The notes beneath the pieces are model-generated. The model worked only from the letters and a program-made list of their open reading frames with translations, was not told where the DNA came from and ran no database searches. This document shows positions 13,738 to 52,100 of a DNA stretch of 64,000 nt, one piece after another (the stretch's first letter is position 1; each line of letters begins with the position of its first letter). The stretch is from an uncultured Myroides sp. Its GTDB lineage: Bacteria; Bacteroidota; Bacteroidia; Flavobacteriales; Flavobacteriaceae. The stretch lies in contig CAJYTF010000034.1 in the NCBI GenBank assembly GCA_913777665.1, positions 124,001 to 188,000 on the forward strand, given 5' to 3'. The translations under genes and the position numbers were made by a program.

Positions 13738-13822
13738 AGGCGTTCCCTTCGGTCGGGCTTTTCGCTGTAATCTTTTTGCTCGTTCCTCTCAAAAAAGTAT
13801 TTCCGCTGCAATCCCTAACGCA
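13738..13822. repeat. Tandem imperfect ~41-bp repeat with GCGTT/AACGC ends
   Basis: Unlike the surrounding AT-rich sequence, this 85-bp stretch is richer in GC and internally repetitive. CGTTCCCTTC and CGTTCCTCTC start two half-units; CGCTGTAATC (13763) and CGCTGCAATC (13804) end them, 41 bp apart. The outer ends form a short inverted repeat (GGCGTT near 13739, TAACGC near 13816). It lies between the Vsr gene and the 119-aa gene. It may be a mobile or recombination-site element. Confidence 0.6.
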
Positions 13823-13833
13823 AATATCCCGTA

Positions 13834-36676: not shown

Positions 36677-36763
36677 CAGAGAGAAAGGGATTCGAACCCT
36701 CGATGCAGTTACCCACATACAAACTTTCCAGGCTTGCTCCTTCAACCACTCGGACACCTCTCT
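36677..36763 (-). tRNA. tRNA-Ser (anticodon GGA)
   Basis: Minus-strand 87-nt cloverleaf with a long variable arm. Acceptor 5' AGAGAGG pairs with 3' TCTCTCT (last pair G-U). The D-arm starts CCGAGTGG, the anticodon loop is CTGGAAA, and the T-arm contains GGTTCGAATCCC. The long variable arm and GGA anticodon identify tRNA-Ser for UCC/UCU codons. No CCA is encoded. Confidence 0.93.
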
Positions 36764-36808: not shown

Positions 36809-38302
36809 TTAAGGCTTATGAAAACCTTGTTTTAATATTTTTGCAACTACATTTTTATAGAAAATATCTTCGAACTGATTTCCATACATTTTAGCAAATG
36901 CCTGTTCTTTTGTTAGGAAATCATTCTCGCGTTCTTTAATAGCATCGTGTAGCGTATTTCTCTTTTTGAACATTGTTATGGCTTGTTCTGCTGTTTCAAA
37001 CTTAGTCTTGCTTAGGTTTTCTTTAATCCAACTTTCAAAATTATCATTTGCAAACGAAGCATTTTCTTCTCGCAATAAATCAGCAAATTTTCTTTTTACC
37101 GAACTATATTCCATGTATTCGTTAGATCCATAAAAAGCTGCAGCAGCCATTTCAAACGCTAGATATTCTTTATCATCTAAAATATTCTTAACCTTTTTTG
37201 GTACCACAACTTTTTTCTCTGCGATAAAATCAACAGGTAACATATCGGCAGTTTTTAAATCGGCAAAAAATCCACTAAAATATACATCATTCGGGTTTAC
37301 TAAATGTCCACCTTTTTGAATTAGCACACATTTTTGTTGAAAATACAATTGAGATTGCTCTTTAGTTTCTTTGTTAAAAACAACAAACGGCACTTCTATT
37401 TCGGCAGTATCTTTTTGCAATTTTGAATTTAAATTACCGCCTTTTATAACCACACCTGACAAATCGGGTCTTTTACGGGTTGGTTTTTTAATGATACAAA
37501 GTTTATAACCATCGTTTTCTGGTTCTACCTTAAAATATTCTTCTACAGGAACGCCCAAACCATTAACTGCGAGTATATAATCACAATTTTCAAGATTAGC
37601 TGTAGTTAAATCGTTAAAAAAAGCAACGCTTGAATTGTTATAGGTTTCATTTCTATTAGCGACTATCTTCTTGTTAGATTTTTCGTTTTCACTAAATAAA
37701 GAATATCCAAAATAATTGCTGTTCGTGTAATTTTTAGGATCTAACGTTTGATAATTGAACTGAACCTGAAATGATTCTAAGTGAAATTTTATGGTATATC
37801 CCAGATTTTCATTATTGATAACAATCGGATTATCAGAATGGGCAGATAACTGATTGGTTTTTGTATCGAAATAAAAATATAAATCGTTTTCGTTTAAGAT
37901 TTTTGTATGCTTGGCGTTTTTGGTGTTTCCTATGAAAAAGTGTTTAAATGCCTTGAGCATTTGTTTACGAGTAAAGACATTTTTATCGATCACTAACTCT
38001 TGTAAAACAGTTTCTTCAGGCTTTAGTCGGATTTTTAAATCAGTAGTTGAACCCGGATCTGACACAAGAAAATATTCATATCCAAAAGAACTTACAACTA
38101 ACTGATTTTTATTATTTGCCGGAATATTAATTTGGAAATATCCTTTTGCATCTGTTTCAGTTGCTATAGTAGTGTTATCTAAAAAAACCGATGCTGCTTC
38201 AACAGGTTTGCCGGTATCTGCACTTACAACAACTCCTTTTACAATTTGTGCGTTTGCAAGCATGCTTAAAAAACAACATATCAATACGTAAAAATGCCTC
38301 AT
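36809..38302 (-). CDS. Carboxypeptidase-regulatory-like domain protein
   Basis: 497-aa exported protein. Signal peptide MRHFYVLICCFLSMLANAQ is followed by a ~90-residue carboxypeptidase-regulatory-like domain (VKGVVVSADTGKPVEAASVFLD, TDAKGYFQINIPA). The remaining ~370 residues have no recognised domain; they are beta-rich, then helical at the C-terminus (EFMEYSSVKRKFADLLREENASF). It is 87 bp downstream of the B12-linked propeller gene on the same strand, so it could be the distal gene of that transcript, but this is uncertain. Confidence 0.7.
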   Translation of the reverse strand: MRHFYVLICCFLSMLANAQIVKGVVVSADTGKPVEAASVFLDNTTIATETDAKGYFQINIPANNKNQLVVSSFGYEYFLVSDPGSTTDLKIRLKPEETVLQELVIDKNVFTRKQMLKAFKHFFIGNTKNAKHTKILNENDLYFYFDTKTNQLSAHSDNPIVINNENLGYTIKFHLESFQVQFNYQTLDPKNYTNSNYFGYSLFSENEKSNKKIVANRNETYNNSSVAFFNDLTTANLENCDYILAVNGLGVPVEEYFKVEPENDGYKLCIIKKPTRKRPDLSGVVIKGGNLNSKLQKDTAEIEVPFVVFNKETKEQSQLYFQQKCVLIQKGGHLVNPNDVYFSGFFADLKTADMLPVDFIAEKKVVVPKKVKNILDDKEYLAFEMAAAAFYGSNEYMEYSSVKRKFADLLREENASFANDNFESWIKENLSKTKFETAEQAITMFKKRNTLHDAIKERENDFLTKEQAFAKMYGNQFEDIFYKNVVAKILKQGFHKP

Positions 38303-38389: not shown

Positions 38390-39646
38390 TTATTTTTTTA
38401 CAAATTTTAAAGTAGCCGACCCTTTTGCTGTTTCAACTTTTAAAACGTATACACCTGTTTTTAAGTTTGATACATTAATTGTTTGTGTATTTGCTCGCAG
38501 TACTTTTTGACCTGCAATGTTGTATGCGGTTACATTTGTAATGCTTTCGGCAGTTTGAATGTTTAATATATCTGATGTTGGGTTTGGATATACCGAAACA
38601 GAAACCATTTCTGGATTTTTCACAGAAAGTGATGCTTTAGACTTGTAGAAATGGTTTGGAATTTTACCAACTGTAAAAGTATTCAACAAACTACCTTGTA
38701 AAGAATATACATACACTTTACCATCTAAAAAATATCCGTTAGCATCGGCAACATAAATAGTATTATTAATTACATTCATACCGTAAATACCCATGTAAAC
38801 ATCAGTAACAGGTGTAGCTACTAATGGGTTGGTAGTTAATGTGTTTGTTGAAACAGTGTATTTGTAAATATCGGCACCAGCAGTAATATAGAAATCAGTT
38901 CCATCTGTATCCATATGAAAAGCTTTAATACCTGAAGGAAATGTAAAAACATTTGTAGCAGTATCTGTACTTAAATTAATTTTATGCAAGCTTGCAATTG
39001 CTGTTGGAGATCCCCACGATGTTACGCCGCATAAAACATATAAATCGTTTCCTAAAGTAACCAACTCAGAAGGAGTATCCTCTACCTGAATTTGAGTTGA
39101 TTGTTGCGTAGCAATATTATAAACCGTAACAAAATCTGCGTTTTGATGTGCGATATACAATTTCCCGTTTATTTCTTTAATTTTTTCTGTACCATTAGGA
39201 ACTGGAATGGTAGTTTCTAACGTATTTGTATTTAAATCAATGACTGCTAAATAATCATTAACATCAGTCGTACCTCCCCAACAAGTTACGTATGCTTTAT
39301 TGTTATATACAGCGGAATATCTAGGGTTTACCATCCCAGAAATTGTTGCAATATGTTCAAATGTTTTGTTGTTTACAATTTTAACCTCGTTAGATATATT
39401 AAGAACAACTACAGCAAGATCATTATACATAGTAAGACTTTGAGCTGTATCGCCCAAATCCATCCCCTGATTTGCCAAACCAAAAACATTGTTTGTCACT
39501 GTATTGTTATTTATAAAAGAAATAGATGCGTTGTCAGACCCCGCACCTCCTTCATTCAGTACAATTACTCCGTCTAAATATTCTGTTTGAGAAAAACCTA
39601 GAAAGCTGAAAAGGACAAATAGTATTAATAAAATATTATTTTTCAT
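38390..39646 (-). CDS. BtuG-like beta-propeller surface protein with T9SS sorting domain
   Basis: 418-aa exported protein. After the signal peptide (MKNNILLILFVLFSFLGFSQ) come repeated propeller blades of the YncE/DUF5074 type: GVIVLNEGGAGSDNASISF, GDTAQSLTMYNDLAVVVLN, NPRYSAVYNNKAYVTCWGG, YLAVIDLNTNTLETTIPVPNG. This order of motifs resembles BtuG, the Bacteroides surface propeller that binds vitamin B12. The last ~75 residues are a type A T9SS sorting domain (VYPNPTSDILNIQ...GVYVLKV) in place of the lipid anchor of BtuG. It lies downstream of a cobalamin riboswitch, supporting a B12 role. Direct B12 binding is inferred. Confidence 0.75.
   Translation of the reverse strand: MKNNILLILFVLFSFLGFSQTEYLDGVIVLNEGGAGSDNASISFINNNTVTNNVFGLANQGMDLGDTAQSLTMYNDLAVVVLNISNEVKIVNNKTFEHIATISGMVNPRYSAVYNNKAYVTCWGGTTDVNDYLAVIDLNTNTLETTIPVPNGTEKIKEINGKLYIAHQNADFVTVYNIATQQSTQIQVEDTPSELVTLGNDLYVLCGVTSWGSPTAIASLHKINLSTDTATNVFTFPSGIKAFHMDTDGTDFYITAGADIYKYTVSTNTLTTNPLVATPVTDVYMGIYGMNVINNTIYVADANGYFLDGKVYVYSLQGSLLNTFTVGKIPNHFYKSKASLSVKNPEMVSVSVYPNPTSDILNIQTAESITNVTAYNIAGQKVLRANTQTINVSNLKTGVYVLKVETAKGSATLKFVKK
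38394..38593 (-). repeat. T9SS sorting-domain coding repeat, copy A
   Basis: About 200 bp at the 3' end of the propeller gene are nearly identical to 39681-39880 at the end of the next gene, at a constant 1287-bp offset. The encoded residues differ at only a few positions. Recent duplication or gene conversion of the sorting domain is the simplest explanation. Confidence 0.85.
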
Positions 39647-39676
39647 GTGTTAGTTGTATTTAGTAAGATATTATGA

Positions 39677-40792
39677 TTATTTTTTTACGAATTTTAAAGT
39701 AGCCGAACCTTTTGCTGTCTCAACTTTTAAAACATAAACTCCTGCTTTTAACCCAGAAACATTAAGTGTTTGTGTGTTTGCCTGTAGTACTTTTTGACCT
39801 GCAATGTTGTAAGCGGTTACATTTGTAATAGTTTCTGCAGTTTGAATGTTTAATATATCTGATGTGGGATTTGGATACACGTTTGCTGCGATAGCATTAT
39901 ATTTATTCGTAGATAATGAAGCCGTGATATCTTGCGGAGTAAATGGTCTTCTTTCACCAATGCTTAAACCTAACCAATCGTTATTATCTAGGTTAATTAA
40001 CGATAAATCGTTTTCTGTTTTCCAGCTAGAAAGATCGGTTCCACTGTATGCTTTCCATAAATTAGTTCCTGCTGTTTCGGTACGATTTCCGATAGTTACA
40101 GACGATAAAACATTTGCATTCATTACAAAATCAAATCCGCCGTTTAATTCTGTATTAATTAAATCTAAAGCATCTTCTGCTGTGATAGATCCGTTGTATT
40201 GAATTCCAAAAACGTAAGAATCTGCAACATTATTTGTATCAGTACCAAAATCAACAACCACTAAACTTTGGTTTGATCCTGTTCCCAACCATGTAATAAT
40301 GTCTGATTTTTTATACCATTGAGAGCTGTATGCAGGAATTGGTTCAACTGGAGCTTGTGATGTAGGGTTGCTAAAACCATAAGAGACACCATACCAATGA
40401 CCGTCTGTTAAGGCTGCAGAAACACCTCCGTTCATTGCGAATGTTTGTGCCGAAGTACCTGACCAAGTGCTCCACCAATCACTTCCGCCTATACTTGTGT
40501 GATCATTGAATGTGACGTGATTTAAGAAGGGACCACCTGTTGTTGGATTAATAGTAAAATTAGGTTCAGCCGCAGCAATTGCAACTAACATACTAGCAAA
40601 TGTTTGTCCTGTTCCGGGAGTGTAATGGTATCCCCAAGCATACGAACGATCATCTGTTCCATCTTTAAAATCTACAACTAAATAAGCTGTTTCAGTTCCT
40701 GTTCCAACATGAAACTTAACGTCACTTGGTGAAAATTGAGCAAAAATTATTTGCGTAAAAAATAGTAAGAATAACAAAGTAATTCTTTTCAT
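39677..40792 (-). CDS. Riboswitch-controlled secreted protein with two internal repeats and T9SS sorting domain
   Basis: 371-aa exported protein (signal peptide MKRITLLFLLFFTQIIFAQ). It contains two ~130-residue copies of one domain. Copy 1 reads ETAYLVVDFKDG...SYAWGYHY...ASMLVAIAAAEP...WWSTWSG...GHWYGVSYG, and copy 2 reads QSLVVVDFG...SYVFGIQY...EDALDLINTE...LWKAYSG...NDWLGLSIG. A T9SS type A sorting domain ends it. It is the first gene after the cobalamin riboswitch and is followed 30 bp later by the BtuG-like propeller. Similar repeat proteins occur in Bacteroidota B12-uptake loci as I recall them. A role in cobalamin or corrinoid capture is inferred. Confidence 0.72.
   Translation of the reverse strand: MKRITLLFLLFFTQIIFAQFSPSDVKFHVGTGTETAYLVVDFKDGTDDRSYAWGYHYTPGTGQTFASMLVAIAAAEPNFTINPTTGGPFLNHVTFNDHTSIGGSDWWSTWSGTSAQTFAMNGGVSAALTDGHWYGVSYGFSNPTSQAPVEPIPAYSSQWYKKSDIITWLGTGSNQSLVVVDFGTDTNNVADSYVFGIQYNGSITAEDALDLINTELNGGFDFVMNANVLSSVTIGNRTETAGTNLWKAYSGTDLSSWKTENDLSLINLDNNDWLGLSIGERRPFTPQDITASLSTNKYNAIAANVYPNPTSDILNIQTAETITNVTAYNIAGQKVLQANTQTLNVSGLKAGVYVLKVETAKGSATLKFVKK
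39681..39880 (-). repeat. T9SS sorting-domain coding repeat, copy B
   Basis: Partner of 38394-38593. It encodes the C-terminal sorting domain of the tandem-repeat protein. Confidence 0.85.
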
Positions 40793-40894
40793 AATATAAA
40801 AAATTTAAAGTTTTGTTCCCGAAACTTTATAGGAATATTTATGAAAAGATTATCAAATGAAGACCTTTTACCACTTTTATTCCCGAAAGTTAAA

Positions 40895-41072
40895 AAATGA
40901 TTTAGGCAGGTCTCCTGGCTTGCATCTTATTGTAGGTCTTCCCAGAAAAAAAATCCAGTGACGTTTTTAATTTACAATAAGTTTGGTAGCATACAGTTGC
41001 GGGTACAGCTCAAGATTCGATTATATCTTACTTGATTCCCTTTTAAAGAACATGACGAATGTTCTACCAAAA
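40895..41072 (-). ncRNA. Cobalamin riboswitch
   Basis: On the minus strand the leader of the 371-aa gene contains the conserved riboswitch core: GGGAATCAAG, then GAGCTGTACCCGCAACTGTATGC, and about 80 nt later the B12 box GCCAGGAGACCTGCC (40905-40919 on the plus strand). These are the hallmark elements of adenosylcobalamin-type riboswitches. About 100 nt separate the B12 box from the start codon. That stretch contains two short hairpins built on ACTTTCGGGAAT-like repeats that could serve as the expression platform. Cobalamin is expected to repress the downstream genes. Confidence 0.93.
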
Positions 41073-41078
41073 TCGGCA

Positions 41079-41086
41079 CGAAGATA
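41079..41086 (-). promoter_or_regulatory. Putative -7 box for the riboswitch transcript
   Basis: Minus-strand TATCTTCG is one base off TAnnTTTG and sits just upstream of the riboswitch, immediately after the stop codon of the TonB-like gene. Confidence 0.4.
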
Positions 41087-41092
41087 CAAAAT

Positions 41093-41542
41093 TTATTCTA
41101 AAGCTAAACGAATAGGTACACGGTAGCGCACACGTTCTGGCTTACCGTTAATTAAAACAGGATTTACACGTAATTTTTTAACTACGCGAACAGCTTCTGC
41201 ATCGCAAACTTTACACAAACCCTTTTCTATCAGTACATCACTAACAGATCCGTCTTTCTCTACTATAAACTGAATATAAATAGTTCCGGTGATTTCTAGT
41301 TCGAGTGCTTCGTCAGGAAAATTGTAGTTCTCGCCTAAAAACTGGGTTACCGATTTGCCTGATAGTGTTTTAATGCTTGTCGCATCTGCGTAAAATGACG
41401 GATCATCTGTATGAACTAATGTGTCGTTTACTGAATTTCCTGCAGGAGCTTCCACAACGCCTTTTTCTAAGGGAGTAGGAATATTTTGGGAAAATCCTGC
41501 CCAGGAAAATCCCATTATAAAAAGTGTAACAATTTTTTTCAT
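41093..41542 (-). CDS. TonB C-terminal-domain protein
   Basis: 149-aa secreted protein. Signal peptide MKKIVTLFIMGFSWAGFSQ is followed by a TonB-type C-terminal domain (ITGTIYIQFIVEKDGSVSDVLIEKGLCKVCDAEAVRVVKKL...PVLINGKPERVRYRVPIRLAL). Unlike classical TonB it lacks a long Pro-rich spanning region and a retained membrane anchor. In Bacteroidota such short forms are common and their role as true energy transducers is unclear. It lies just upstream of the B12 riboswitch on the same strand, but the riboswitch has its own leader. Confidence 0.82.
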   Translation of the reverse strand: MKKIVTLFIMGFSWAGFSQNIPTPLEKGVVEAPAGNSVNDTLVHTDDPSFYADATSIKTLSGKSVTQFLGENYNFPDEALELEITGTIYIQFIVEKDGSVSDVLIEKGLCKVCDAEAVRVVKKLRVNPVLINGKPERVRYRVPIRLALE

Positions 41543-52027: not shown

Positions 52028-52100
52028 GCGGAAGTAGCTCAGTTGGTAGAGCGTCAGCCTTCCAAGCTGAATGTCGCGAGTTCGACCCTCGTCTTCCGCT
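52028..52100 (+). tRNA. tRNA-Gly (anticodon TCC)
   Basis: 73-nt cloverleaf. Acceptor GCGGAAG pairs with CTTCCGC (discriminator T), the D-arm has AGCTCAGTTGGTAGAGC, the anticodon loop is CTTCCAA, and the T-arm is GCGAGTTCGACCCTCGT. CCA is not encoded. An ORF-track protein across it (51959-52162) is a shadow. Confidence 0.95.

Follow-up and report, generated by a model that had tools for sequence, protein, structure and literature searches.

In the window (the whole 64,000-nucleotide stretch analyzed here), an open reading frame (ORF) with an ATG start at 39677–40792 of the minus strand encodes a secreted tandem-repeat protein of 371 aa (P0001), with relatives at 49 further loci. A full-length cobalamin riboswitch aptamer (RF00174; cmscan, 99 bits, E = 1.6e-23, model positions 1–189 of 189) that includes the B12 box AGCCAGGAGACCTGCC is located at 40888–41086 on the same strand. 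The start codon lies 95 bases past the aptamer with no gene between them, and the first-pass annotation was therefore correct in naming 39677–40792 as the gene nearest the B12 riboswitch. After a gap of 30 bases, a second minus-strand gene (38390–39646) encodes a 418-aa protein with a BtuG-like β-propeller (DUF5074; PF16819, E = 1.6e-9) and a T9SS tail. Residues 25–333 of this product match the BtuG2 and BtuG3 crystal structures (E ~1e-21), indicating a full-length BtuG homologue. A third gene on the same strand (36809–38302), separated by 87 bases, encodes a 497-aa CarboxypepD_reg-like domain protein (PF13715, E = 4e-16); such a gene is likewise found downstream in loci L038 and L045, and its inclusion in the B12 operon is uncertain. 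Just upstream of the riboswitch, a same-strand gene for a small TonB C-terminal-domain protein was observed (41093–41542, minus strand; PF03544, E = 8e-13). The window also contains a Flavo-1 RNA (RF01705, 46.7 bits) at 13747–13826 (minus strand) and two tRNA genes at 36677–36763 (minus strand) and 52028–52100 (plus strand).

The 371-aa protein begins with a putative signal peptide (residues 1–18, MKRITLLFLLFFTQIIFA; 40739–40792, minus strand), recognized by eye from its hydrophobic core, and ends with a T9SS type A sorting domain (residues 305–368, also given as 305–371; 39689–39880, minus strand), for which both PF18962 (E = 5.3e-14) and TIGR04183 (E = 1.4e-14) score above cut-off. With this pair of features the protein has the makeup of a T9SS type A cargo. 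The region between them is occupied by repeat A (residues 19–155; 40328–40738, minus strand), which is the better-conserved copy, and the more diverged repeat B (residues 156–290; 39923–40327, minus strand). The two copies of ~135 aa are 26% identical over ~110 residues (E = 1e-8 for a single comparison), which bears out the earlier description of the protein as two copies of one domain. Conservation peaks in repeat A along a WSTWSG strand (mean ~98%), whose tryptophans are residues 107 and 110 of the window protein, whereas the conserved W-x-x-W strand is largely gone from repeat B in Flavobacteriaceae. The relatives show A-B, A-B-A-B (684 aa, L037), three-copy (579 aa, L068) and single-domain (L084, L085 and L111) layouts.

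The host genome (Flavobacteriaceae, 2.9 Mb) is close to Paenimyroides ummariense, whose copy shares 96% identity over the repeats. Three cobalamin riboswitch matches were found in the host genome, and two of these exceed the cut-off of the family; the second riboswitch governs a btuB–btuG pair, made up of a gene for a TonB-dependent receptor and one related to the BtuG-like second gene. The B12-dependent methionine synthase MetH was found in this genome (E = 1e-123) and CobD/CbiB was not detected in it, so that dependence on B12 scavenging is plausible. The P. ummariense locus (L038, 7944–9059), the closest relative, is without the BtuG-like second gene. The tail of its repeat protein is a mosaic, the 5′ part resembling the first gene of the window and the 3′ part the second, and within 38390–40792 of the window the T9SS-tail stretches of these two genes are 79% identical in DNA. 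A deletion in L038 by recombination between the tails is therefore likely.

All surveys of the distribution of the repeat were made within Bacteroidota. When the whole protein was used as query within the family, 215 of 251 genomes matched, nearly all through residues 290–371. The genome is rich in T9SS tails, and most of the raw similarity matches come from the tail by itself, as would be expected if a generic, adhesin-like T9SS-secreted protein happened to sit in B12 operons by chance. Because the tail swamped the whole-protein search, later searches were performed with the repeats only. The repeat pair alone, searched against one genome per species, returned 49 loci from Paenimyroides, Chryseobacterium, Flavobacterium, Psychroflexus, Mesonia, Crocinitomicaceae and many Flavobacteriales MAGs. 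In 43 of these loci the same strand carries a B12 box (three mismatches or fewer) ahead of the domain, and in 39 the box is no more than 300 bases from the domain start; an Rfam search showed the aptamer to be full-length in all submitted loci with a box and contributed one more locus (L068), so that 44 of the 49 relatives are preceded by a cobalamin riboswitch or a B12 box. Among the five others, three (L046, L062 and L086) are cut by contig ends near the gene, and two (L084 and L085), which encode near-identical single-domain proteins with neither a riboswitch nor B12 neighbors, are genuine or probable exceptions. A class-wide search with a single-repeat profile matched 14 of 395 genomes, 13 of which carried RF00174 either immediately before the gene or at the start of the operon; in the fourteenth (G788) the contig starts within the operon, a short way ahead of the repeat gene. 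The two surveys are not fully independent, because some genomes were present in both collections. The riboswitch was also present in all 10 Bacteroidales loci examined, and genomes with the gene contained one to five cobalamin riboswitch matches each. By comparison, none of 27 control loci with the T9SS tail as their sole shared feature had a B12 box. Given how few genomes match once the tail is removed, their position in riboswitch loci, the controls, and the occurrence of lipoprotein and propeller-fused forms likewise in B12 loci, a chance passenger is extremely improbable. A search of a plasmid collection found no relatives. In Flavobacterium rivuli (L069, 7932–9071), two separate ORFs (171 aa and 179 aa) take the place of an intact repeat gene, with the riboswitch retained, which represents either a pseudogene or a sequencing error.

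Pfam and NCBIfam searches found no model covering the repeats in any of 34 members, and none over the domain in the Bacteroidales lipoprotein form. The first-pass annotation had proposed an undescribed corrinoid-binding or B12-handling domain and had suggested counting how often matches lie downstream of cobalamin riboswitches; the proposal is supported, with corrinoid binding as its predicted part: the matches are concentrated almost wholly in riboswitch-controlled B12 operons by each of the counts given above, and no known family includes the repeat. Three candidate parent families were rejected. DUF4430 was ruled out, as PF14478 gave no match at E ≤ 1 among the 34 members (0/34). For DUF4465/BtuJ, no member matched PF14717 and the predicted fold differs from the augmented β-jelly-roll. 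For BtuH, searches at E ≤ 5 and E ≤ 10 gave no sequence match to 7biz. Sequence profiles compared with the PDB yielded chance matches only (viral-capsid and other proteins, E ≥ 0.03), and among the papers covered by a literature search no description of a transcobalamin-like B12 protein from bacteria was found. A weak similarity to NCBIfam NF040672 (SCO2322 family) over WWSTWSG...VDFG was observed in 4 of the 34 members (best E = 0.0013) and also in L155, with the window protein scoring 18 against a cut-off of 85 bits; as a lead only, the SCO2322 family is a possible distant relative outside Bacteroidota.

The AlphaFold models of the tandem (pLDDT 91.5, pTM 0.87) and of repeat A alone (pLDDT 91.5, pTM 0.88) show a β-β-α-β-β-β-β order in the repeat. 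In a Foldseek search with a single repeat, the first 17 PDB matches were transcobalamin, its isolated β domain, intrinsic factor and the bacterial structure 3u7z (probability 0.72–1.00), and all other matches had a probability of 0.4 or less. The tandem model matched the same proteins at 0.92–1.00, the others among the matches listed being at 0.60 or less. Against transcobalamin and intrinsic factor, the probability was 0.91–1.00, with a TM-score of 0.60–0.67 on 5no0; the Foldseek E-values were modest (0.008–0.1) despite probabilities near 1. The match to 3u7z, which we take to be a DUF4430-type structure, had a probability of 0.72–0.80. PF14478 itself also matches the transcobalamin β domain (E = 1e-5), but is nearly absent from Bacteroidota (1 of 297 genomes). 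For a profile–profile comparison, PDB chain sequences of transcobalamin and intrinsic factor β domains were used; hhalign against the transcobalamin/DUF4430 alignment was full-length and co-linear and not significant (P 0.69 for repeat A and 0.10 for repeat B, both profiles being shallow). Common descent is for this reason not claimed, and the evidence carries fold likeness together with B12 context. Co-linear landmarks recognized by eye were GPYLTSV/GPFLNHV, FWQLL/WWSTW and GIADYRPKDGETIELRLVSW/GVSAALTDGHWYGVSYGF. The β domain of rat transcobalamin is ordered hairpin, helix, hairpin, hairpin; in animal carriers the β domain is the first to bind cobalamin, after which the unrelated α domain closes over it (PMC11107200). 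The conserved WSTWSG strand of repeat A falls in the half of the fold with which transcobalamin contacts cobalamin. On these models, each repeat is predicted with high confidence to adopt a β-grasp of the transcobalamin/intrinsic factor β-domain type.

The C-terminal β domain of transcobalamin, intrinsic factor and haptocorrin (5no0, 5np4, 2bb6 and 2pmv) is thus alike in predicted fold, strand order and B12 context. In contrast to transcobalamin, the window protein is bacterial and T9SS-exported and has two β-like domains in tandem, with more in some relatives, without the α (six-hairpin) domain; signal peptide, two repeats and tail account for the 371 aa, leaving an N-terminal α6-α6 barrel absent. 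Among the B12 proteins of Bacteroidota, BtuJ (DUF4465, PF14717) is similar in being a secreted, B12-regulated surface protein, with T9SS tails in some family members, but it is an augmented β-jelly-roll, unlike the order modeled for the window repeats. The BtuH C-terminal domain (7biz, ~270 aa) likewise belongs to riboswitch-controlled B12 loci, but 7biz is absent from the 50 best fold matches listed for the repeats. BtuG, a DUF5074 propeller, has a different fold and is a partner rather than a relative of the repeat domain, the two being joined in one polypeptide in L155. Identity with BtuK (BT_1486/BT_1487) is less likely, because the domain occurs in only 8 of 201 genomes of the family of G469; synteny in Bacteroidaceae-like loci revealed no operon that places BtuK. 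The best reading is that the repeat-domain proteins form a family apart from BtuG, BtuH and BtuJ.

Control by the riboswitch shows that the 371-aa protein is involved in the B12 economy and is not proof of binding: no cobalamin binding was seen for the B12-regulated BtuL or for BtuK2, whereas BtuK1, the paralogue of BtuK2, did bind it (PMC12751083). These precedents would suit a B12-regulated accessory with no corrinoid binding of its own, for example a surface scaffold for BtuG/BtuB or a promoter of vesicle release like BtuL, in which the fold is a generic β-grasp. The β-grasp serves many protein–protein contacts, USP7 ubiquitin-like tandems were among the Foldseek matches of the tandem model at lower probability, and repeat B has lost much of its W-x-x-W strand in Flavobacteriaceae. 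Among PDB β-grasp proteins, however, only the B12-binding transcobalamin type and one bacterial DUF4430-type structure score high, and repeat A retains its near-invariant strand in the cobalamin-touching half of the fold, which makes a non-binding accessory unlikely. Taking genomic context and fold together, we infer that the 371-aa protein is probably a surface vitamin B12 (cobamide) capture protein with tandem transcobalamin-β-like domains.

The neighbors of the domain bear on what it might capture. Recurrent operon partners are a TonB-dependent receptor, a DUF5074/BtuG-like propeller and a third secreted family, joined in Bacteroidales by BtuH. In L152 a BtuH homologue (matching 7biz at 7e-41) lies immediately upstream of the domain, whose protein is lipoprotein-like in this locus, and in L155 one polypeptide combines the domain with a DUF5074 propeller and a series of Big_2 Ig domains. 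The isolated transcobalamin β domain binds cobinamide as well as cobalamin (PMC5599065) and the function of the repeats is read from context, so that the ligand might instead be a cobalamin precursor, another B12 carrier protein, haem or cobalt, tied to B12 supply without being a cobamide. With cobamide-specific partners (BtuG, BtuH and BtuB-type receptors) and none of the operons seen pointing to cobalt or haem transport, such a ligand is quite improbable.

For the cobamide capture protein, a working scheme can be proposed. When cellular B12 is low, the riboswitch, if it switches in the direction of known cobalamin riboswitches, would permit expression of the 371-aa gene and the BtuG-like gene. 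The signal peptide would direct export across the inner membrane, after which the T9SS, judging from the sorting domain, would deliver the protein to the cell surface or release it. Each of the two linked β-like domains might hold its own corrinoid, or the pair might clamp a single one; repeat A would catch the corrinoid, and repeat B would perhaps serve as a lid or a second site. The BtuG-like propeller could then take over the captured corrinoid and hand it to the BtuB-type TonB-dependent receptor under the other strong cobalamin riboswitch of the genome. We suggest, tentatively, that Bacteroidota may hold a distinct corrinoid-binding family, in which tandem transcobalamin-β-type domains without an α domain act as a self-contained clamp on one ligand, the module being common to animal carriers by descent or convergence. 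If so, the same gripping module would serve B12 carriers in animals and B12 scavengers in bacteria.

Competition among bacteria is decided by surface B12 capture, and the known Bacteroidota B12 binders BtuG, BtuH, BtuJ and BtuK were characterized in gut Bacteroides. The unnamed domain described here, absent from Pfam and NCBIfam, is a signature of B12 loci under riboswitch control in Flavobacteriales and Bacteroidales. As a cobamide-binding domain, it would give many genes annotated as “hypothetical T9SS protein” a function, serve as a quick genomic marker of B12 scavenging, and provide a bacterial counterpart of the β domain of mammalian B12 carriers, with which one-domain and two-domain binding could be compared.

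The domain also occurs in other architectures. In L158–L160 it is part of proteins of ~555–570 aa with an N-terminal region of no assigned family, and in L161 it sits behind an Ig-like domain. Very large surface proteins of Bacteroidales (1100–1440 aa) that start with the domain were observed in B12 riboswitch loci (L153, 2238–6566; L154, 5704–11695; L155, 2674–6621; L156, 4156–7473). The third secreted family noted above (~320 aa) is found repeatedly in B12 operons under riboswitch control. Its proteins usually carry a T9SS tail, outside which no Pfam or NCBIfam model covers them. Its members begin with the pattern “(P)PAAGQ.GSTAI..DS” and carry the motif “PPAAGQEGSTAI.KDS..F..WA”. This family, represented at L046 (1238–2215), L068 (5190–6173), L070 (9038–9982), L158 (4753–5736) and L204 (10872–11864), is a candidate for another B12-handling protein.
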